A stretch of 64,000 nucleotides of DNA from Armatimonadota bacterium (GTDB lineage: Bacteria; Armatimonadota; UBA5829; DSUL01): NCBI GenBank assembly GCA_020846715.1, contig JADLDK010000022.1:1-64000 (forward strand), written 5' to 3'. The notes under the pieces were generated by a model. The model saw only the letters and a list, made by a program, of their open reading frames with translations. It was not told where the DNA came from and did not search any database. This document shows, piece by piece, positions 23,796-57,734 of the stretch (the stretch's first letter is position 1; each line of letters starts with the position of its first letter). Both the position numbers and the translations under genes were made by a program.

Positions 23796-24479
23796 ATGAG
23801 AGGTTCAATGCGCGCTGCGGCACTAACGCTCGCGGCAATGACAATTAGCGCTGTGGCGTATGCCCAGGGCAGCACCAACGCGGCTGCGTTTCAGAAGTTT
23901 CGCTCGCAGCACAAGTACACGTTTCAGCTCAGCACAACAGTCTTTCGAGGGCTGGCTGAGTGTGAGCGCACGGATTCCACCAAGTTGAAGCCGGCGCAGG
24001 CCAAGCAGATTCTCAGTGTGCTCAACCCTCTGCGCAAGCAGTCCAAGCTCACGCAGGATCAAGCGAAGTCTGCGATTCAGAAGATTCAGCGCGCTCTTGA
24101 TCAGAAGCAGTTGAGCGCGATTGACAAAGTACTCAACAGCAACGCGCGCCCTGGGTTTTCCGGATCTGGAAATCGGCCGGGCAACGCAACCGGTGCGAGA
24201 CCGGGCGGGAATCGTCCTGGGGGGCCAGCGGCAGGTAACAGACCGGCTTTTGATCCTTCCAAGATGAAGGATTTCAATCCGTTCAATCCCAGCAAGACCT
24301 CGCCCAACTATGAGCGGCAGTTGGACAGGGTAAAGCGCCTCTTCAGTTTTCTTGAGGCGCGCTCAGCCAACAAGCCGGCCACTCTGCAAATGATGCGGCC
24401 AGGGCAGGGCAGCCCGCGTGCTGGCGAAAAGAGACCCGGCAACAGGCCAGGCGCAAAGCCAGCACCGCGCAGAAGCTAG
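23796..24479 (+). CDS. Small secreted protein of the efflux operon, unknown function
   Basis: 227 aa with a signal peptide (cleavage near AYAQG, residue about 24). Residues 30-115 are helical with charged and Gln-rich segments (KLKPAQAKQILSVLNPLRKQ, LTQDQAKSAIQKIQ), somewhat like Spy/LTxxQ-type periplasmic proteins. The rest is a Gly/Pro/Arg/Asn-rich linker (GNRPGGPAAGNRP) and a basic tail. A strong AGGAGG site precedes the ATG. It follows the permease by 52 bp and precedes a strong terminator, so it is probably the last gene of the operon. A chaperone or sensor role is a guess. Confidence 0.75.
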   Translation: MRGSMRAAALTLAAMTISAVAYAQGSTNAAAFQKFRSQHKYTFQLSTTVFRGLAECERTDSTKLKPAQAKQILSVLNPLRKQSKLTQDQAKSAIQKIQRALDQKQLSAIDKVLNSNARPGFSGSGNRPGNATGARPGGNRPGGPAAGNRPAFDPSKMKDFNPFNPSKTSPNYERQLDRVKRLFSFLEARSANKPATLQMMRPGQGSPRAGEKRPGNRPGAKPAPRRS

Positions 24480-31830: not shown

Positions 31831-32154
31831 ATGTCCAACGCAGCAGCAGTAACGGAATCCAGCTTTGAGCAGGAAGTGATCAACTCTCAGCAACCTGTCC
31901 TGGTGGACTTCTGGGCGACATGGTGCGGACCGTGCCGTCAGGTTGCCCCCATCGTGGATGAGATCGCCAAAGAATACGACGGCAAGCTGAAGGTTCTGAA
32001 GGTGGATGTGGACAACGAGCGCGCTCTGGCAATCAAGTATCGCATCCAGAGCATCCCTACACTTCTGTTCTTCAAGGGCGGTGAGGTCAAGGATCAGATC
32101 ATCGGATCCGTCAGCAAGCAGACGATTTCCGCCAAGGTGGACAACCTCGTCTAG
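31831..32154 (+). CDS. trxA: Thioredoxin
   Basis: 107-aa cytoplasmic disulfide reductase. The active site WCGPC is at residues 31-35, in FWATWCGPCRQVAPI. The cis-Pro (SIPTLLFF) and the C-terminal GG-type region are conserved. An AAGGAAAG ribosome site and a TATAAT promoter precede it, so it is probably transcribed alone and strongly. Confidence 0.96.
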   Translation: MSNAAAVTESSFEQEVINSQQPVLVDFWATWCGPCRQVAPIVDEIAKEYDGKLKVLKVDVDNERALAIKYRIQSIPTLLFFKGGEVKDQIIGSVSKQTISAKVDNLV

Positions 32155-32347: not shown

Positions 32348-32376
32348 TTGACAACGGCAATCGCTCGTGTTAGGCT
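32348..32376 (+). promoter_or_regulatory. Promoter of the exopolysaccharide/exosortase operon
   Basis: Perfect -35 TTGACA (32348-32353), 17-bp spacer, -10 TAGGCT (32371-32376, a weak match). The weak -10 with a perfect -35 suggests a controlled or activator-independent low-output promoter. It implies a leader of about 390 nt before the first gene at 32772. The -10 lies within a 10-mer repeated 80 bp downstream. Confidence 0.55.
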
Positions 32377-32452
32377 GTACTTACTTTGGCAGGGAGTGGC
32401 TGCGCGCGGCCGCATATCCCCGATACACTAGCCGGGAGAAGTTGTCAGGTTA

Positions 32453-32534
32453 GGCTGTCTGTCAGCGTCGGCTATAGCAGAAAAGGGTGGCGTACCAGCC
32501 GTGTCCGGCCGGCGAAAGCTGACGGACTCTAGCC
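32453..32534 (+). ncRNA. Candidate structured leader RNA element of the polysaccharide operon
   Basis: GTCTGTCAGC (32457-32466) pairs with GCTGACGGAC (32518-32527) over 10 bp with one G-U pair. Directly inside, GTCGGC (32467-32472) pairs with GCCGGC (32508-32513), leaving a GAAA bulge. Outside, GGCT (32453-32456) pairs with AGCC (32531-32534). The apical part GGGTGG/CCAGCC can pair with one mismatch. The element lies in the untranslated leader. It does not match the GEMM c-di-GMP consensus or another riboswitch I know. Confidence 0.45.
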
Positions 32535-32625
32535 GCCGCCTGAACAGCGGGTAGTATTTGGTATTTGCTCAGATGGGTATTTGCCTGTGGGGCAACTCTG
32601 CCCTGCCCGTGCCACTGATAGTTTC

Positions 32626-32645
32626 GGAACTCCCCGATGAGTTCC
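32626..32645 (+). other. Hairpin in the polysaccharide operon leader
   Basis: GGAACTC, six-base loop CCCGAT, GAGTTCC: a perfect 7-bp stem. It is one of several local hairpins in the leader between the candidate structured element and the first gene. Confidence 0.4.
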
Positions 32646-32737
32646 TGTCCTGGAAGAGGAGTGGTGAAAAAGCTGTCACCGGAACAACCAGAGGAAGTCC
32701 CCTGTCAGACGCTTATGTCTGTGGACATCGGGCTGGC

Positions 32738-32767
32738 CTCCCCGTCACACATCAATGGTGACGAGGG
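32738..32767 (+). promoter_or_regulatory. Hairpin that can mask the ribosome site of the first polysaccharide gene
   Basis: CGTCAC (32743-32748) pairs with GTGACG (32758-32763). After one mismatch, CC pairs with GG (32765-32766), so the arm covers the GAGGG Shine-Dalgarno (32763-32767) of the gene starting at 32772. This arrangement could lower translation unless the helix is opened. Confidence 0.45.
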
Positions 32768-32771
32768 ATAG

Positions 32772-33533
32772 ATGCCGAAGAGTCTTGCTGTGGCGATCAC
32801 AGATTACACAGACCCTGCTTCGGCGCCACAGGTGAGGGAGCAGTTGGACCGGGAAAGGCGCGCGACTCTTGAGCAGATGGGTATTGATTTCGGCGCGCGC
32901 TGTGCCGCACAGCCTGCTGCGCGTGAAAGTCGCCTCTATCTGACTGTCAAGCGAGCGCTGGACATCGTCGTCGTCCTGCTGCTTCTTGCCCTCCTTGCGC
33001 CCGTGTTCGTCATAATTGGGCTGTCTATCTACATGGAAGATCGCGGCCCGATTTTCTACCGTCAAGTACGCGCGGGGAGGGATGGGCGTCCATTCACGTT
33101 TTACAAGTTCCGCAGCATGGTCGTCAATGCGGAGCAGATTCAGGAGCAGTTGCAGTCGAAGAACGAGGCGTCCGGCCCGATATTCAAAATGCGGGACGAT
33201 CCCCGCGTCACCAAGACCGGCCGCTGGCTGAGGCGTTCGTCTCTGGATGAGCTGCCGCAGCTTATCAATGTTCTTCTTGGGGATGTGAGTCTTGTGGGGC
33301 CGCGTCCGCAGCTTCCATCTGAAGTGGAGCAGTACAAGCCACACCACAGGCAGAGGTTGAGCGTACAGCCGGGGCTGCTGTGTCTTAGAGAAGTTTCCGG
33401 GCGCTCCAAGCTGACGTTTGAGGAGTGGGTGGAGTTGGACCTGCTCTATATTCAGCACCGGGGACTCAGGATGGATGCGTCGATCTTTCTGAGGGCTATT
33501 AAGGCGGTTTTGAAGGGTGATGGCGCTTATTAG
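32772..33533 (+). CDS. Undecaprenyl-phosphate sugar-1-phosphate transferase (initiating glycosyltransferase)
   Basis: 253-aa bacterial sugar transferase that starts repeat-unit assembly on the lipid carrier. One membrane helix (about 62-84) precedes the catalytic part: GPIFYRQVRAGRDGRPFTFYKFRSM, TKTGRWLRRSSLDELPQL, LVGPRPQL, and RLSVQPGLLCLREVSGRSKL. This is the short PglC/EpsB-like form, lacking the four-helix CoA-binding-like module of WcaJ. The N-terminal 60 residues are hydrophilic and not recognised. It is the first gene of the locus, after a long hairpin-rich leader. Confidence 0.93.
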   Translation: MPKSLAVAITDYTDPASAPQVREQLDRERRATLEQMGIDFGARCAAQPAARESRLYLTVKRALDIVVVLLLLALLAPVFVIIGLSIYMEDRGPIFYRQVRAGRDGRPFTFYKFRSMVVNAEQIQEQLQSKNEASGPIFKMRDDPRVTKTGRWLRRSSLDELPQLINVLLGDVSLVGPRPQLPSEVEQYKPHHRQRLSVQPGLLCLREVSGRSKLTFEEWVELDLLYIQHRGLRMDASIFLRAIKAVLKGDGAY

Positions 33534-35698: not shown

Positions 35699-35741
35699 GC
35701 AGCCGTGTTCCGCCACTTTCAGTGACGGACGCGGCTGCTTT
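35699..35741 (+). terminator. Terminator after the PEP-CTERM gene
   Basis: A near-perfect long stem begins GCAGCCG (35699-35705) and ends CGGCTGC (35732-35738), with CCG/CGG and CAC/GTG inside, followed by TTT. Because the next gene starts 230 bp on, it may split the locus into two transcripts. Confidence 0.65.
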
Positions 35742-53149: not shown

Positions 53150-54245
53150 TACACCGCACATGGCCGGGACGGAACGGCATGTGCTGACGCTTGGCGCGTC
53201 TCTGGCTGGATTGCAGATTACAGCGGTGATCGGGTGTCGTACGGGGAGTCCGCTGTGGCAGGCTGCCGGTGCGATGGACCTGGAGCGGATGGTGTTGCCG
53301 GAGGCTAGGAACGTAGCGAAGGTGATGCGCCTTGCGCATTCCGCTGGCTGTGATATTCTCCATGCCCACAATGGTCGAACCACTTTTATGGCGGCGCTGG
53401 GGGCGCTTGGCAGTGTCCCTGCGGTGGCGACCCAGCATTTTATTGACCCTGCGCACACGCTGTACGGAGGACTGGCTGGAAGAGTAATGGGGTTGGCTCA
53501 TCGCAGGGTGAACCGCCGCCTCAGCAAGATTATCTGTGTCTCTGAGGCGGTGCGGGAAGCTCTTTTGAAGCGGGAGAAGCTGGCTGAGACAAAGGTGCGG
53601 ACGATCCCGAACGGTATCGCGCAGCCTGAACCGCCGTCTCCCGAAGCTGTAGAGGCGATCCGGGTGGAGTTTGATCTTTCTCCGGAGAGACCGCTAGTCG
53701 TCTGTGTGTCGCGCCTGGAGCAGGAGAAGAACGTAGAGTGTCTGGTTGGCGCTATGCGGGAAGTTGTTCAGCGCCGCCCCGAGGCGCTTTGCCTGATTGC
53801 GGGTGATGGGTCGCAGATGGAGTCTCTGAGGGCGCAGGCCTCTGCAGCAGGGCTTGACCACAGCGTCGTTTTTGCCGGTTTTAGAAGCGATGCGCTGGCT
53901 TTGATGGCGCTTTCGCACTGCGTAGTGTTGCCGAGTCGCGCCGAGCCTTTTGGTCTGGTGCTGGCAGAGGCGATGGCCATGGGAAAGGCCGTAGTTGCCG
54001 CAAACGCGGGTGGGCCGCGGGAGATTGTGGTGGAGGGAAAAACAGGTTTTCTGGTCCCGCCGTCGGATTCTGCTGCGCTGGCACAGGCGTTGATGTGGCT
54101 GCTGGATGACGACAGCTTGCGCGTTGAGATGGGCGAGCGTGGACGTCAACGCTTTTTGTCTCATTATACGGCGGGGCGCATGGCGGAGGCGACAGCGGAA
54201 GTGTACCGTGAAGTCCTGCGTAAGCCCCAGATTAGAACCAGTTGA
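53109..54245 (+). CDS. Family 4 glycosyltransferase
   Basis: 378 aa from GTG 53109. The conserved part begins LRVLLLLDTPHMAGTERHVL, and TTG 53127, better placed after GAGGAAGAGG, may be the true start. GT-B halves: ILHAHNGRTTFMAALG, then CVSRLEQEKNVECLVGAM, IAGDGSQMESL, VLPSRAEPFGLVLAEAMAMG. It is the last transferase of the locus and lies before the glycoside hydrolase. Confidence 0.92.
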   Translation: MRKRCWLRVLLLLDTPHMAGTERHVLTLGASLAGLQITAVIGCRTGSPLWQAAGAMDLERMVLPEARNVAKVMRLAHSAGCDILHAHNGRTTFMAALGALGSVPAVATQHFIDPAHTLYGGLAGRVMGLAHRRVNRRLSKIICVSEAVREALLKREKLAETKVRTIPNGIAQPEPPSPEAVEAIRVEFDLSPERPLVVCVSRLEQEKNVECLVGAMREVVQRRPEALCLIAGDGSQMESLRAQASAAGLDHSVVFAGFRSDALALMALSHCVVLPSRAEPFGLVLAEAMAMGKAVVAANAGGPREIVVEGKTGFLVPPSDSAALAQALMWLLDDDSLRVEMGERGRQRFLSHYTAGRMAEATAEVYREVLRKPQIRTS

Positions 54246-54377
54246 CAGTCGTGAAGTTTGTGGAATAATGAAACAAGGATGTAAGTGTCTGAGCGTCCAC
54301 TGGTCAGACCACCCCAAATAGGCGACAGGGCTCTTTCTCCCGCCTGCCTAGCAACGCCTCGTATAAGGTCGGTAACT

Positions 54378-57300
54378 ATGTTTCACACCCTCTGCCGAAC
54401 CTCCCGAGTTCTCGCTGTAATCGTTCTTGTGACTGGGCTTTCGCTACTTTGTAGCCCGCTGTTTGCAGGCTGGAGCTCGGATCTACCACGTACAAACCTC
54501 GTAACGGCCGTTTCCGGGAAGCGAAACAACGTTTTCTACGTGGGCCAGCCGGTACAGTTTACATTCAACAAGTCCGGCGCTGTGCGCTATGAGGTGCGCG
54601 ACTACTACGGCGAGATGGTCGATCAGGGTCCGGTGCAAGCGCAGATAACCCTCAACGTGCACAAGCCGGGGTGGTACAAGCTCTATCTCTACGGAGCGGT
54701 GAGCCAGGAGCCGTGGGGGGCAGTGGTTGGCGGGACGACGTTTGTGATTTTCCGGAACACTCCGGGGTTTCCTGACCTTCCAGCAGCCAATGTTGGGCCG
54801 GGTGGCTCTTACTACTCCATGGACTCTCAGATGCGCGGGGTTATCGGCGCAGGGCCGTTCCGCCTTTTCGTGGCCGATGCGAGCAAGCCAGACGAGGCGA
54901 TAGCCAAGTTGGAGGCAGATGTGGCGCTGGATCAGCAGTACTATCTGCCGTTTGACCCTGTGCGCAAGAGAGTGCTTATGTGCGCGTTTCCAAACGGGAC
55001 AAGCGACACTGAAGGCGTGCGTCAGATAGTGAACCACTTTCGGGATACCATCCAGTACTGGGAGCCACGCAATGAGCCCCAGGGAACCCCTGCCGCCACG
55101 TTTGTGCAAAACGAAATGAAGCCCTTTTACGAGGTGGTAAAAAGCGTGGATCCATCGCTGAAGGTTATGGGGCCGGGTACGGTCAGCATTGGGCCGGGAC
55201 AGTTGAAATGGATTGATGATTTCTTCAAGGCCGGTGGTGGAGACTATATAGACGCGTTTTCCTTTCACGCCTACAACGCGGTGAATGGAGACCTCTGGTT
55301 AGCCCGCCATTCTCTGGAAGAGCTAAACAAAGCGCTTGCCCGGAACGGGAAGGCCGATATCGAGAAGTGGCAGACAGAACAGGGCTACTTCGCTCCCGTT
55401 TATGGCTCCTACCAGCCGCGGCTCCAGGGGCGCTGGACGATGGTCCAGATGATGGTCTATGAGCAGTTTGGCATTCCGAAGGAGCACAACCACTACTGGT
55501 ATGACAAGAGTCATGGCTTCTGGGACTTTCCTACGTGGTGGGAGAATGACGACGGCAGCCTGAACCCGGCGGCGCCTCTGCTCAGAGTCTGGTCTGAAGA
55601 GCTGTGGGGGACGACATTTTCCAAGGCCTACGATTTTGGCGCGTCCGGCAATAATCTGTACGTGGGGAGTCTGTTCTCGGGGCCTTCGAAGAAGGTTGCG
55701 GCGTTTATGAGCGCCGGAAGCACGGATGGGGAAGTGACGCTGCGGGTGACTGGGCCAGGTGACCTGCACTGCGTGTCGGCCTTTGGCGTCGCCCAGGACT
55801 ACAAGGTGGTTGACGGCAAGGTGACGCTGGTGGTTTCGGAGTTGCCTGTCTACGTGGAGATTGCCTCTGACCAGACGATAGAGGTGGTTCCTCAGGAGTG
55901 GTCAACGAACCTGGCGCGTATTCCGGGCGTTGTGGTCAAGTCATCCGGTTCAAGCGCCAATCTGGACCGGATTAACAACGGGCAGTTGGAGAACTGGTAT
56001 TACGCTCAGGGGCAAAGCGCGGGGCCGTGGGTTGACGATACCGGCGTTTTTCCGGCGTGGGTAGAGATTGACCTCCCCAAGGTCCGCCCTGTTGACCGCG
56101 TGGTCATCTTTGCTGCTCCACCCTGGCAGTCGCAAAGCACGCTTCTGGACTACGAACTGCAGTACGACAAAGATGGGCAGTGGGTGACCATTGACCACAT
56201 TCAGGAGCCGACGCGGACTTTCAAAGTCTATACACCACCGGTGCGCTGTTCTGTTGACAGCTTTTTCTCCGACCGATGGGTGTTTCAACACCATTTTGCC
56301 CCGGTGACTACCGGGAAGCTGCGAATCTTCGTTCACGATGTGACGTGGGGCGGTGGCGCGACACAGGACGTTGTGGCGGCAGGCGGGCAGACCGGGCCCC
56401 ACAAACTGAACCTGCGCGAGATTGAGATCTATGACACCAGCTCACCGATGTACAGTCTGAGCGGACGGATTACGGATGCCAGCGGCAACGGTGTTCCTGG
56501 CGTTCAGATGATTGTGAGCGGTTGGGAAAACCGGAGCGTTCAGGCGGATGAGGAGGGTAACTACCGGGTGGACGGGCTCGTGCAGGGGGCCGCGTACAAG
56601 ATCAGCCCTTCCAAGCCTGGACTCAACTTTTCGCCGAACTGGTATGAGTCCCCGGCGTGGTCCGCCAGCGCGAAACAGGACTTCGCTGCTTCGTCTGTAG
56701 TGCCGGGACAAGGCAGCGGCCTGACGGGCGATTACTACTTCAACCGTTTCTCCAATGGCGCTCCCGTAATCTTTGGACAGCTTGTATTCACACGGGTTGA
56801 CCCGGAGATTGACTTTGACTGGGATCTGAACCCACCGATATCCTGGGCGCACGATCACTTCTCCGTGCGCTGGCAGGGACAGGTTGTGCCTCGCTACACA
56901 GAGCCGTACACATTTCAGGTGTCTCTTGGCGGGCCGTGGGGTAACAGCACAAGCTGGCAGTGCCGCCTGTGGGTGAACAAAGAGCTTGTCATTGACAACT
57001 GGGACAACCCGCGTAGCCAATCCAACAATCACGGCACGATCAATCTGGTTGCTGGAAAGAAGTACGACATCAAGCTGGATTACAGCAAAGCGCAGGGGTG
57101 GATGGAGGCGAAGCTGCGTTGGTCGAGCCCGACGCAAGCTCTCGAGATCGTCCCGCAGTCTCAGCTTTTTCCTGCGGTCTCCGGCAGTGCTGTGAATGAG
57201 CCGCCTGTTGCGTATGGATTTTCGAGAGCGTTGACAGAGGAGCCTGAACCGCTGCTTTTGTTGGCGGCCGATCCTGAGAGCCGGCCACTGATCTACCGGA

Positions 57301-57734
57301 TTGTCAACCCGCCGGCGAATGGGACTCTGACAGGCGCCGCGCCCAACCTTTTGTACACGCCTGCGGCGGGTTTTGCGGGTCAGGACAGCTTTACTTTCAG
57401 GGTGAGCGATGGCTATCAGTATTCTAACGTTGCCACTGTGACTCTGAATGTGCAGCCGCGTCATCCTTACATCAAGCTGACCACCACCTCTCCACCGCAG
57501 ACGGCTATTCCGGGGAGCCGCGTGCTGCTTACTGTAACCTGCACCAATACCTCTTCCAGCCCGGCGGTGAATGCGGTGGTGAAGGGAATGGTGCCGGCTA
57601 ACACAGTGTATGTGGAGGACAGCGCAACGGATGGAGGGGTTTATGACGCCCGGGACGGCGCTGTGCGCTGGGTTCTTCCAAGGCTGGAAGGTGGGCAGTC
57701 CAGAACTGTTTCCTACCGGGTGCGCATCAAGTAG
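54378..57734 (+). CDS. Secreted multidomain glycoside hydrolase (clan A, GH39-like) with PA14 and Ig-like domains
   Basis: 1118 aa. A signal peptide (MFHTLCRTSRVLAVIVLVTG, cleavage near LFAGW) is followed by a beta domain, then a TIM barrel (about 130-440) with YWEPRNEP (acid/base Glu233) and QTEQGY (nucleophile Glu334), the spacing expected in clan A. Next are a discoidin-like beta domain (about 520-690), a carboxypeptidase-regulatory-like domain (YSLSGRITDASGNGVPG), a PA14-type domain (GLTGDYYFNRFSNG), a cadherin-like repeat and a DUF11-like end (SYRVRIK). ATG 54378 has AAGG upstream. At the end of a polysaccharide locus, it is likely to cut or remodel the exported glycan, as PslG does. Confidence 0.8.
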   Translation: MFHTLCRTSRVLAVIVLVTGLSLLCSPLFAGWSSDLPRTNLVTAVSGKRNNVFYVGQPVQFTFNKSGAVRYEVRDYYGEMVDQGPVQAQITLNVHKPGWYKLYLYGAVSQEPWGAVVGGTTFVIFRNTPGFPDLPAANVGPGGSYYSMDSQMRGVIGAGPFRLFVADASKPDEAIAKLEADVALDQQYYLPFDPVRKRVLMCAFPNGTSDTEGVRQIVNHFRDTIQYWEPRNEPQGTPAATFVQNEMKPFYEVVKSVDPSLKVMGPGTVSIGPGQLKWIDDFFKAGGGDYIDAFSFHAYNAVNGDLWLARHSLEELNKALARNGKADIEKWQTEQGYFAPVYGSYQPRLQGRWTMVQMMVYEQFGIPKEHNHYWYDKSHGFWDFPTWWENDDGSLNPAAPLLRVWSEELWGTTFSKAYDFGASGNNLYVGSLFSGPSKKVAAFMSAGSTDGEVTLRVTGPGDLHCVSAFGVAQDYKVVDGKVTLVVSELPVYVEIASDQTIEVVPQEWSTNLARIPGVVVKSSGSSANLDRINNGQLENWYYAQGQSAGPWVDDTGVFPAWVEIDLPKVRPVDRVVIFAAPPWQSQSTLLDYELQYDKDGQWVTIDHIQEPTRTFKVYTPPVRCSVDSFFSDRWVFQHHFAPVTTGKLRIFVHDVTWGGGATQDVVAAGGQTGPHKLNLREIEIYDTSSPMYSLSGRITDASGNGVPGVQMIVSGWENRSVQADEEGNYRVDGLVQGAAYKISPSKPGLNFSPNWYESPAWSASAKQDFAASSVVPGQGSGLTGDYYFNRFSNGAPVIFGQLVFTRVDPEIDFDWDLNPPISWAHDHFSVRWQGQVVPRYTEPYTFQVSLGGPWGNSTSWQCRLWVNKELVIDNWDNPRSQSNNHGTINLVAGKKYDIKLDYSKAQGWMEAKLRWSSPTQALEIVPQSQLFPAVSGSAVNEPPVAYGFSRALTEEPEPLLLLAADPESRPLIYRIVNPPANGTLTGAAPNLLYTPAAGFAGQDSFTFRVSDGYQYSNVATVTLNVQPRHPYIKLTTTSPPQTAIPGSRVLLTVTCTNTSSSPAVNAVVKGMVPANTVYVEDSATDGGVYDARDGAVRWVLPRLEGGQSRTVSYRVRIK

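Follow-up and report, generated by a model that had tools for sequence, protein, structure and literature searches.

Introduction

Two described leaders come closest to the one analysed here. The psl exopolysaccharide operon of Pseudomonas aeruginosa has a leader with a hairpin of Shine-Dalgarno (SD) and anti-SD sequence that is under the control of RsmA; this hairpin depends for its stability on RsmA, bound in its loop (PMC7652899). The iraD leader of Escherichia coli, which is under CsrA, contains a short open reading frame (ORF) that is translationally coupled to the gene (PMC7652899). Long polysaccharide operons are moreover the usual clients of processive antitermination systems (PMC7819879), and an RpoN promoter has been reported for a PEP-CTERM gene (PMC9850573).

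Here we describe the region that precedes an exopolysaccharide/exosortase gene cluster in an Armatimonadota bacterium. The window, i.e., the whole stretch of DNA that was analysed, comprises 64,000 nt, and the source genome (G000) has 3.2 Mb in 69 contigs and is 94% complete. The genes of the locus are as follows:

31831-32154, thioredoxin gene, the upstream neighbour of the leader
32772-33533, + strand, first gene, polyprenyl-phosphate sugar transferase (Bac_transf, PF02397, E 1e-61) of 253 aa
33620-54245, + strand, rest of the cluster: peptidylprolyl isomerase (PPIase), PEP-CTERM-like protein, Wzz/tyrosine autokinase, SLBB export protein, exosortase, EpsI-type protein, ABC exporter and glycosyltransferases
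54285-57734, last gene, 1149 aa

Among named genomes, the top match of the sugar transferase is an Armatimonadetes MAG (60% identity). The cluster is like the described exosortase/PEP-CTERM exopolysaccharide loci (PMC1569441) in having an autokinase, an SLBB export protein, an exosortase and an EpsI-type protein, each of which scores above a general NCBIfam cut-off. Unlike those of the described loci, the exosortase falls outside named subtypes such as XrtA: it is below their NCBIfam cut-offs and reaches those of the general exosortase models only.

With the psl leader, the region shares the exopolysaccharide operon, a long, predicted untranslated leader, an SD paired in a predicted leader hairpin and a CsrA-family gene in the genome. 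It differs in that the hairpin is predicted to be stable by itself and that its loop (ACAUCAAU) has no GGA. Like iraD, the first gene begins where a short ORF ends; the ORF is putative here, and the gene unrelated. In two other members of the class (G009 and G025) a sugar-transferase gene is preceded by a c-di-GMP-I riboswitch (RF01051), which is absent from the leader here.

Results and Discussion

Promoter and Predicted Transcription Start

The following elements define the leader:

32348-32353, + strand, -35 box TTGACA, read directly from the sequence, 424 bp 5′ of the ATG at 32772
32368-32376, + strand, extended -10 element TGtTAGGCT, after a 17-bp spacer
32383-32771, + strand, predicted 5′ leader of ~390 nt, placed from the promoter

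The original prediction had a perfect -35 box about 420 bp before the first gene, and TTGACA is indeed present there, so the leader is long. It had named the -35 box only; the -10 box, TAGGCT, lies at 32371-32376 with a TG at 32368-32369, one base ahead of it. TTGACA by itself occurs 38 times in the window, and, scored as a sigma-70-type site, the combination of -35 and -10 ranks in the top three for the + strand of the whole window. We also counted matches to TTGACA-N17-TAGGYT and to a reversed control pattern in four members of the family and in the other 24 genomes of the class. The family members gave 8 matches vs. 1 control match and the other genomes 5 vs. 14, which shows that the pattern is enriched in this family alone. 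Three of the eight family matches precede the orthologous wzc/exosortase operon (one in G001, two on separate contigs of G003), and a PEP-CTERM/sugar-transferase unit of G001 has TTGACA-N17-TATGCT ~240 bp upstream. The promoter of the leader thus appears to be real and is well supported by its score and its recurrence in relatives. From its position, transcription is predicted to start near 32383. A start close to 32772 is unlikely because the promoter layout is conserved in relatives.

The + strand of the leader contains no RpoN promoter, and matches to the -24/-12 pattern in the window are no more frequent than in shuffled sequence. In another member of the class (G020), a CRISPR-like array with the repeat GTTGCACCGGTCCTCCGGGGCCGGTGAGGATTGAAAC was seen 3′ of a TTGACA-N17-TAGGCT site (L100).

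The Predicted Hairpin Over the Shine-Dalgarno Sequence

Two elements lie directly before the first gene:

32739-32768, + strand, SD-burying hairpin of about -16 kcal/mol, pairing the SD GAGGG at 32763-32767
32637-32771, + strand, possible leader ORF of 44 codons, whose TAG directly precedes the sugar-transferase ATG in the same frame

A final hairpin covering the SD had been placed at 32738-32767, and the hairpin found here does pair the GAGGG, so that by prediction the SD is sequestered in a stable leader hairpin. Opening the SD is predicted to cost 14.0 kcal/mol, more than at any other of the 42 starts scored in the window, a few of which are placed approximately. Compared to shuffled upstream sequence the cost is modestly significant (p 0.03). 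By these folding estimates the last hairpin is a clear outlier among the elements of the leader. In the units of G001 and G003, by comparison, the SD of the first gene is open (3.6 to 4.5 kcal/mol), which indicates that the burial is not conserved along with the promoter.

We consider it about an even chance (a probability of roughly 0.5) that this hairpin restrains translation of the first gene; it may be opened either by coupling to the leader ORF or by an RNA-binding protein. A housekeeping-type promoter at 32348-32376 would then give rise to a leader of ~390 nt before the exopolysaccharide/exosortase cluster, and the hairpin at 32739-32768 would be the main functional feature of this leader, hiding the SD of the first gene. 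We infer that the sugar transferase, the chain-starting enzyme, would be translated poorly as long as the hairpin stays closed. One candidate opener is a ribosome on the 44-codon ORF (translational coupling): as the ORF ends at the ATG in frame, ribosomes translating it would open the hairpin. The other is changed binding of an RNA-binding protein, e.g., CsrA. These two are possibly the most economical openers, and the evidence does not choose between them.

For the ORF, the coding signal from codon usage has a p of 0.062 in a test that detects only 39% of real gene pieces, and there is no Pfam match. A second leader ORF at 32573-32758 was discarded, as it shows no coding signal (p 0.20) and no Pfam match. 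The genome contains one csrA gene (E 2e-23). GGA sites are not enriched in the leader (10 vs. 8.1 expected, p 0.28); AGGGA at 32764 overlaps the SD and one further ARGGA is found at 32391. Restraint by the SD hairpin is thus favored by the high-scoring promoter and its recurrence in relatives, the cost of opening the SD, the ORF abutting the ATG, the presence of csrA and the precedent of the SD/anti-SD hairpin in the psl leader. Against it stand the open SDs of G001 and G003, the lack, in the genomes compared, of a homologous leader that could show selection on the hairpin (see below), the modest p-value of the opening cost, the coding signal of the ORF, which comes from a test of low power, and the GGA sites without enrichment.

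Should the prediction for the SD hairpin hold, the hairpin would set the amount of the chain-initiating enzyme and so the amount of polysaccharide. Taken with the c-di-GMP-I riboswitches of G009 and G025, it would then seem that one step of polysaccharide synthesis is controlled in related bacteria by different leader RNAs. This would be helpful for annotating regulation in a phylum that has been little studied, and involves no new principle.

Stability of the Leader Fold

The foremost alternative to restraint by the SD hairpin is that the leader is an ordinary long 5′UTR whose hairpins have no dedicated regulatory role beyond, at most, protection of the mRNA from decay, and that control takes place at the promoter. 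We hold this to be possible, with a clearly smaller chance than the restraint of translation. It bears in particular on two hairpins further upstream:

32446-32542, + strand, long multi-part stem-loop with a GAAA bulge in the minimum free energy (MFE) structure, -47.2 kcal/mol
32626-32645, + strand, perfect 7-bp hairpin with the loop CCCGAT, arms 32626-32632/32639-32645

Both had been read from the sequence before. The multi-part stem with its GAAA bulge, previously given as 32453-32534, is present in the MFE structure, with 10-nt arms at 32457-32466/32518-32527, and the 7-bp hairpin was found exactly as described. When folded alone, the stretch 32446-32545 has a z-score of -3.75 (0 of 200 shuffles reach its energy), a value for a stretch that was chosen after the fact. 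When the best 100-nt stretch of the leader was instead compared with that of shuffled leaders, the p-value was 0.085. A perfect 7-bp hairpin also arises in 11% of the leaders when shuffled (p 0.11). Both the big stem and the 7-bp hairpin are within chance expectation, which fits an ordinary 5′UTR. The 5′-most hairpin of the leader is not above shuffles either (z +0.6).

The leader as a whole folds to -163.9 kcal/mol vs. -145.9 ± 5.9 kcal/mol in shuffles (p 0.005), which speaks against an ordinary 5′UTR, as does the SD hairpin being the most closed of the 42 start positions. Yet when 320 segments of 389 nt were taken from all over the window, ~3% of them reached a z-score of -3, i.e., ordinary segments that fold equally well. 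We therefore regard the predicted fold of the leader as moderately stable, not striking. The related units of G001 and G003 are preceded by leaders of ~240-290 nt, so that long leaders seem to be the rule in this group, and no conservation of the leader was found among relatives, both of which are in line with an ordinary 5′UTR.

The hairpin loop at 32633 is complementary over 7 nt to 32726-32732, a match that was dropped, as several such pairs are expected by chance. The leader also contains GTATTTG three times (32554-32583), possibly a protein-binding site. Elsewhere, a folding scan over the window placed the segment 24401-24600, near the end of the ORF 23796-24479, with its most extreme outliers (z about -5).

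Search for Known RNA Families and Homologues

The original prediction had seen in this region the layout of a riboswitch or other translation switch that could be matched to no known class. A search with the Rfam covariance models, as had been proposed, gave no match to the leader at gathering score and nothing noteworthy up to an E of 10, so that the second part of the statement holds. The GEMM consensus had been reported as absent, and c-di-GMP-I is likewise not matched in the leader by Rfam. The accompanying idea of control by c-di-GMP is reasonable for the class, in which 24 of 28 genomes contain c-di-GMP-I riboswitches, and does not apply to this leader. The source genome has two such riboswitches, on other contigs. 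The copies just upstream of a sugar-transferase gene are those of G025 (L013:2241-2317, - strand) and G009 (L015:2278-2355, - strand).

DNA searches of relatives, including nhmmer and blastn against the orthologous loci, detected no homologue of the leader. A covariance model (R1) built on the stem from the single sequence found no credible match but itself in 28 genomes of the class and 151 of the phylum (best other match E 0.38). Nor is there a second copy in the source genome, where only the window itself matches besides short chance matches. The best of these are 17 and 18 nt long and lie within open reading frames, and a repeat or mobile element was thus rejected. Judged from these comparisons, the leader would be either genus-specific or diverged past recognition. 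The three leaders aligned from G001 and G003 are near-identical (mean column identity 94%); between them 1 of 97 predicted pairs is changed on both sides, and the covariation term does not favor the structure, so that this alignment speaks neither for nor against it. In these wzc-operon leaders (L097:1536-1615, L098, L106) a long hairpin is seen right after the predicted start, with -38.7 kcal/mol and a z-score of -3.1 for L097:1536-1615.

A new, lineage-specific riboswitch class would have the stem at 32446-32542 as part of its aptamer, and a ligand or other signal would set access to the SD hairpin. We regard such a riboswitch as improbable, and find it just as doubtful that an undescribed RNA would here stand in for the c-di-GMP-I riboswitch found before a sugar-transferase gene of other class members. 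The multi-part stem does lie upstream of an SD-burying hairpin, and the c-di-GMP-I riboswitches before sugar-transferase genes indicate that members of the class do control this step through a ligand. Riboswitches are, however, usually widespread, while no Rfam family, no second copy in the genome and no match to the stem model in the class or phylum was found, and the stem, taken as the best one of its leader, lacks significance. With no recognisable aptamer, no homologue in relatives and upstream hairpins no stronger than shuffles, the reading as a riboswitch is not borne out. In the literature searched we found no paper joining Armatimonadetes with a riboswitch, and exosortase and riboswitch are joined only in passing, in three papers. 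Nothing found here shows a new riboswitch; what the leader suggests is a well-known type of control at translation.

Transcription Elongation and Extent of the Operon

A processive antitermination leader (RfaH/ops, LoaP or EAR type) for reading a long operon is the least probable explanation and in our view very unlikely: a long polysaccharide operon is the usual client type and the GGTAGTAT at 32550-32557 fits the ops core GGTAGNNT, but GGTAGNNT is expected by chance about once per ten such leaders, Rfam detects neither EAR nor JUMPstart in the leader up to an E of 10, the genome has one NusG-family gene and no paralogue (at most one such gene per genome of the class), and the sole terminator-like site in the leader is weak and occurs at the rate of shuffles. 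Intrinsic attenuation was rejected as well, as the leader has no good terminator. The lack of a good terminator and of a NusG paralogue makes control of translation likelier than control of transcription elongation, which is unlikely.

Two further sites bear on the length of the transcript:

35699-35738, + strand, strong hairpin between the PEP-CTERM-like gene (gene 3) and the autokinase gene (wzc), -30.8 kcal/mol
54242-54269, + strand, separate promoter-like site before the last gene, TTGACA-16-AATAAT (11/12), with TG before the -10

The operon had been proposed to span 25 kb. This length has to be reduced, as the last gene has a promoter-like site of its own, a strong hairpin lies within the cluster and the genes are found in two loci in G001. 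The internal hairpin was missed by the terminator scan and stands out from its shuffles (z -3.83, 0 of 200); it may mark where a first transcription unit ends or is processed. In G001 each of the two loci has a promoter-like site, whereas in the window the genes are joined. Based on the promoter-like site of the last gene and the hairpin at 35699-35738, the operon comprises at most ~21.5 kb (32772-54245) and may consist of two transcription units.
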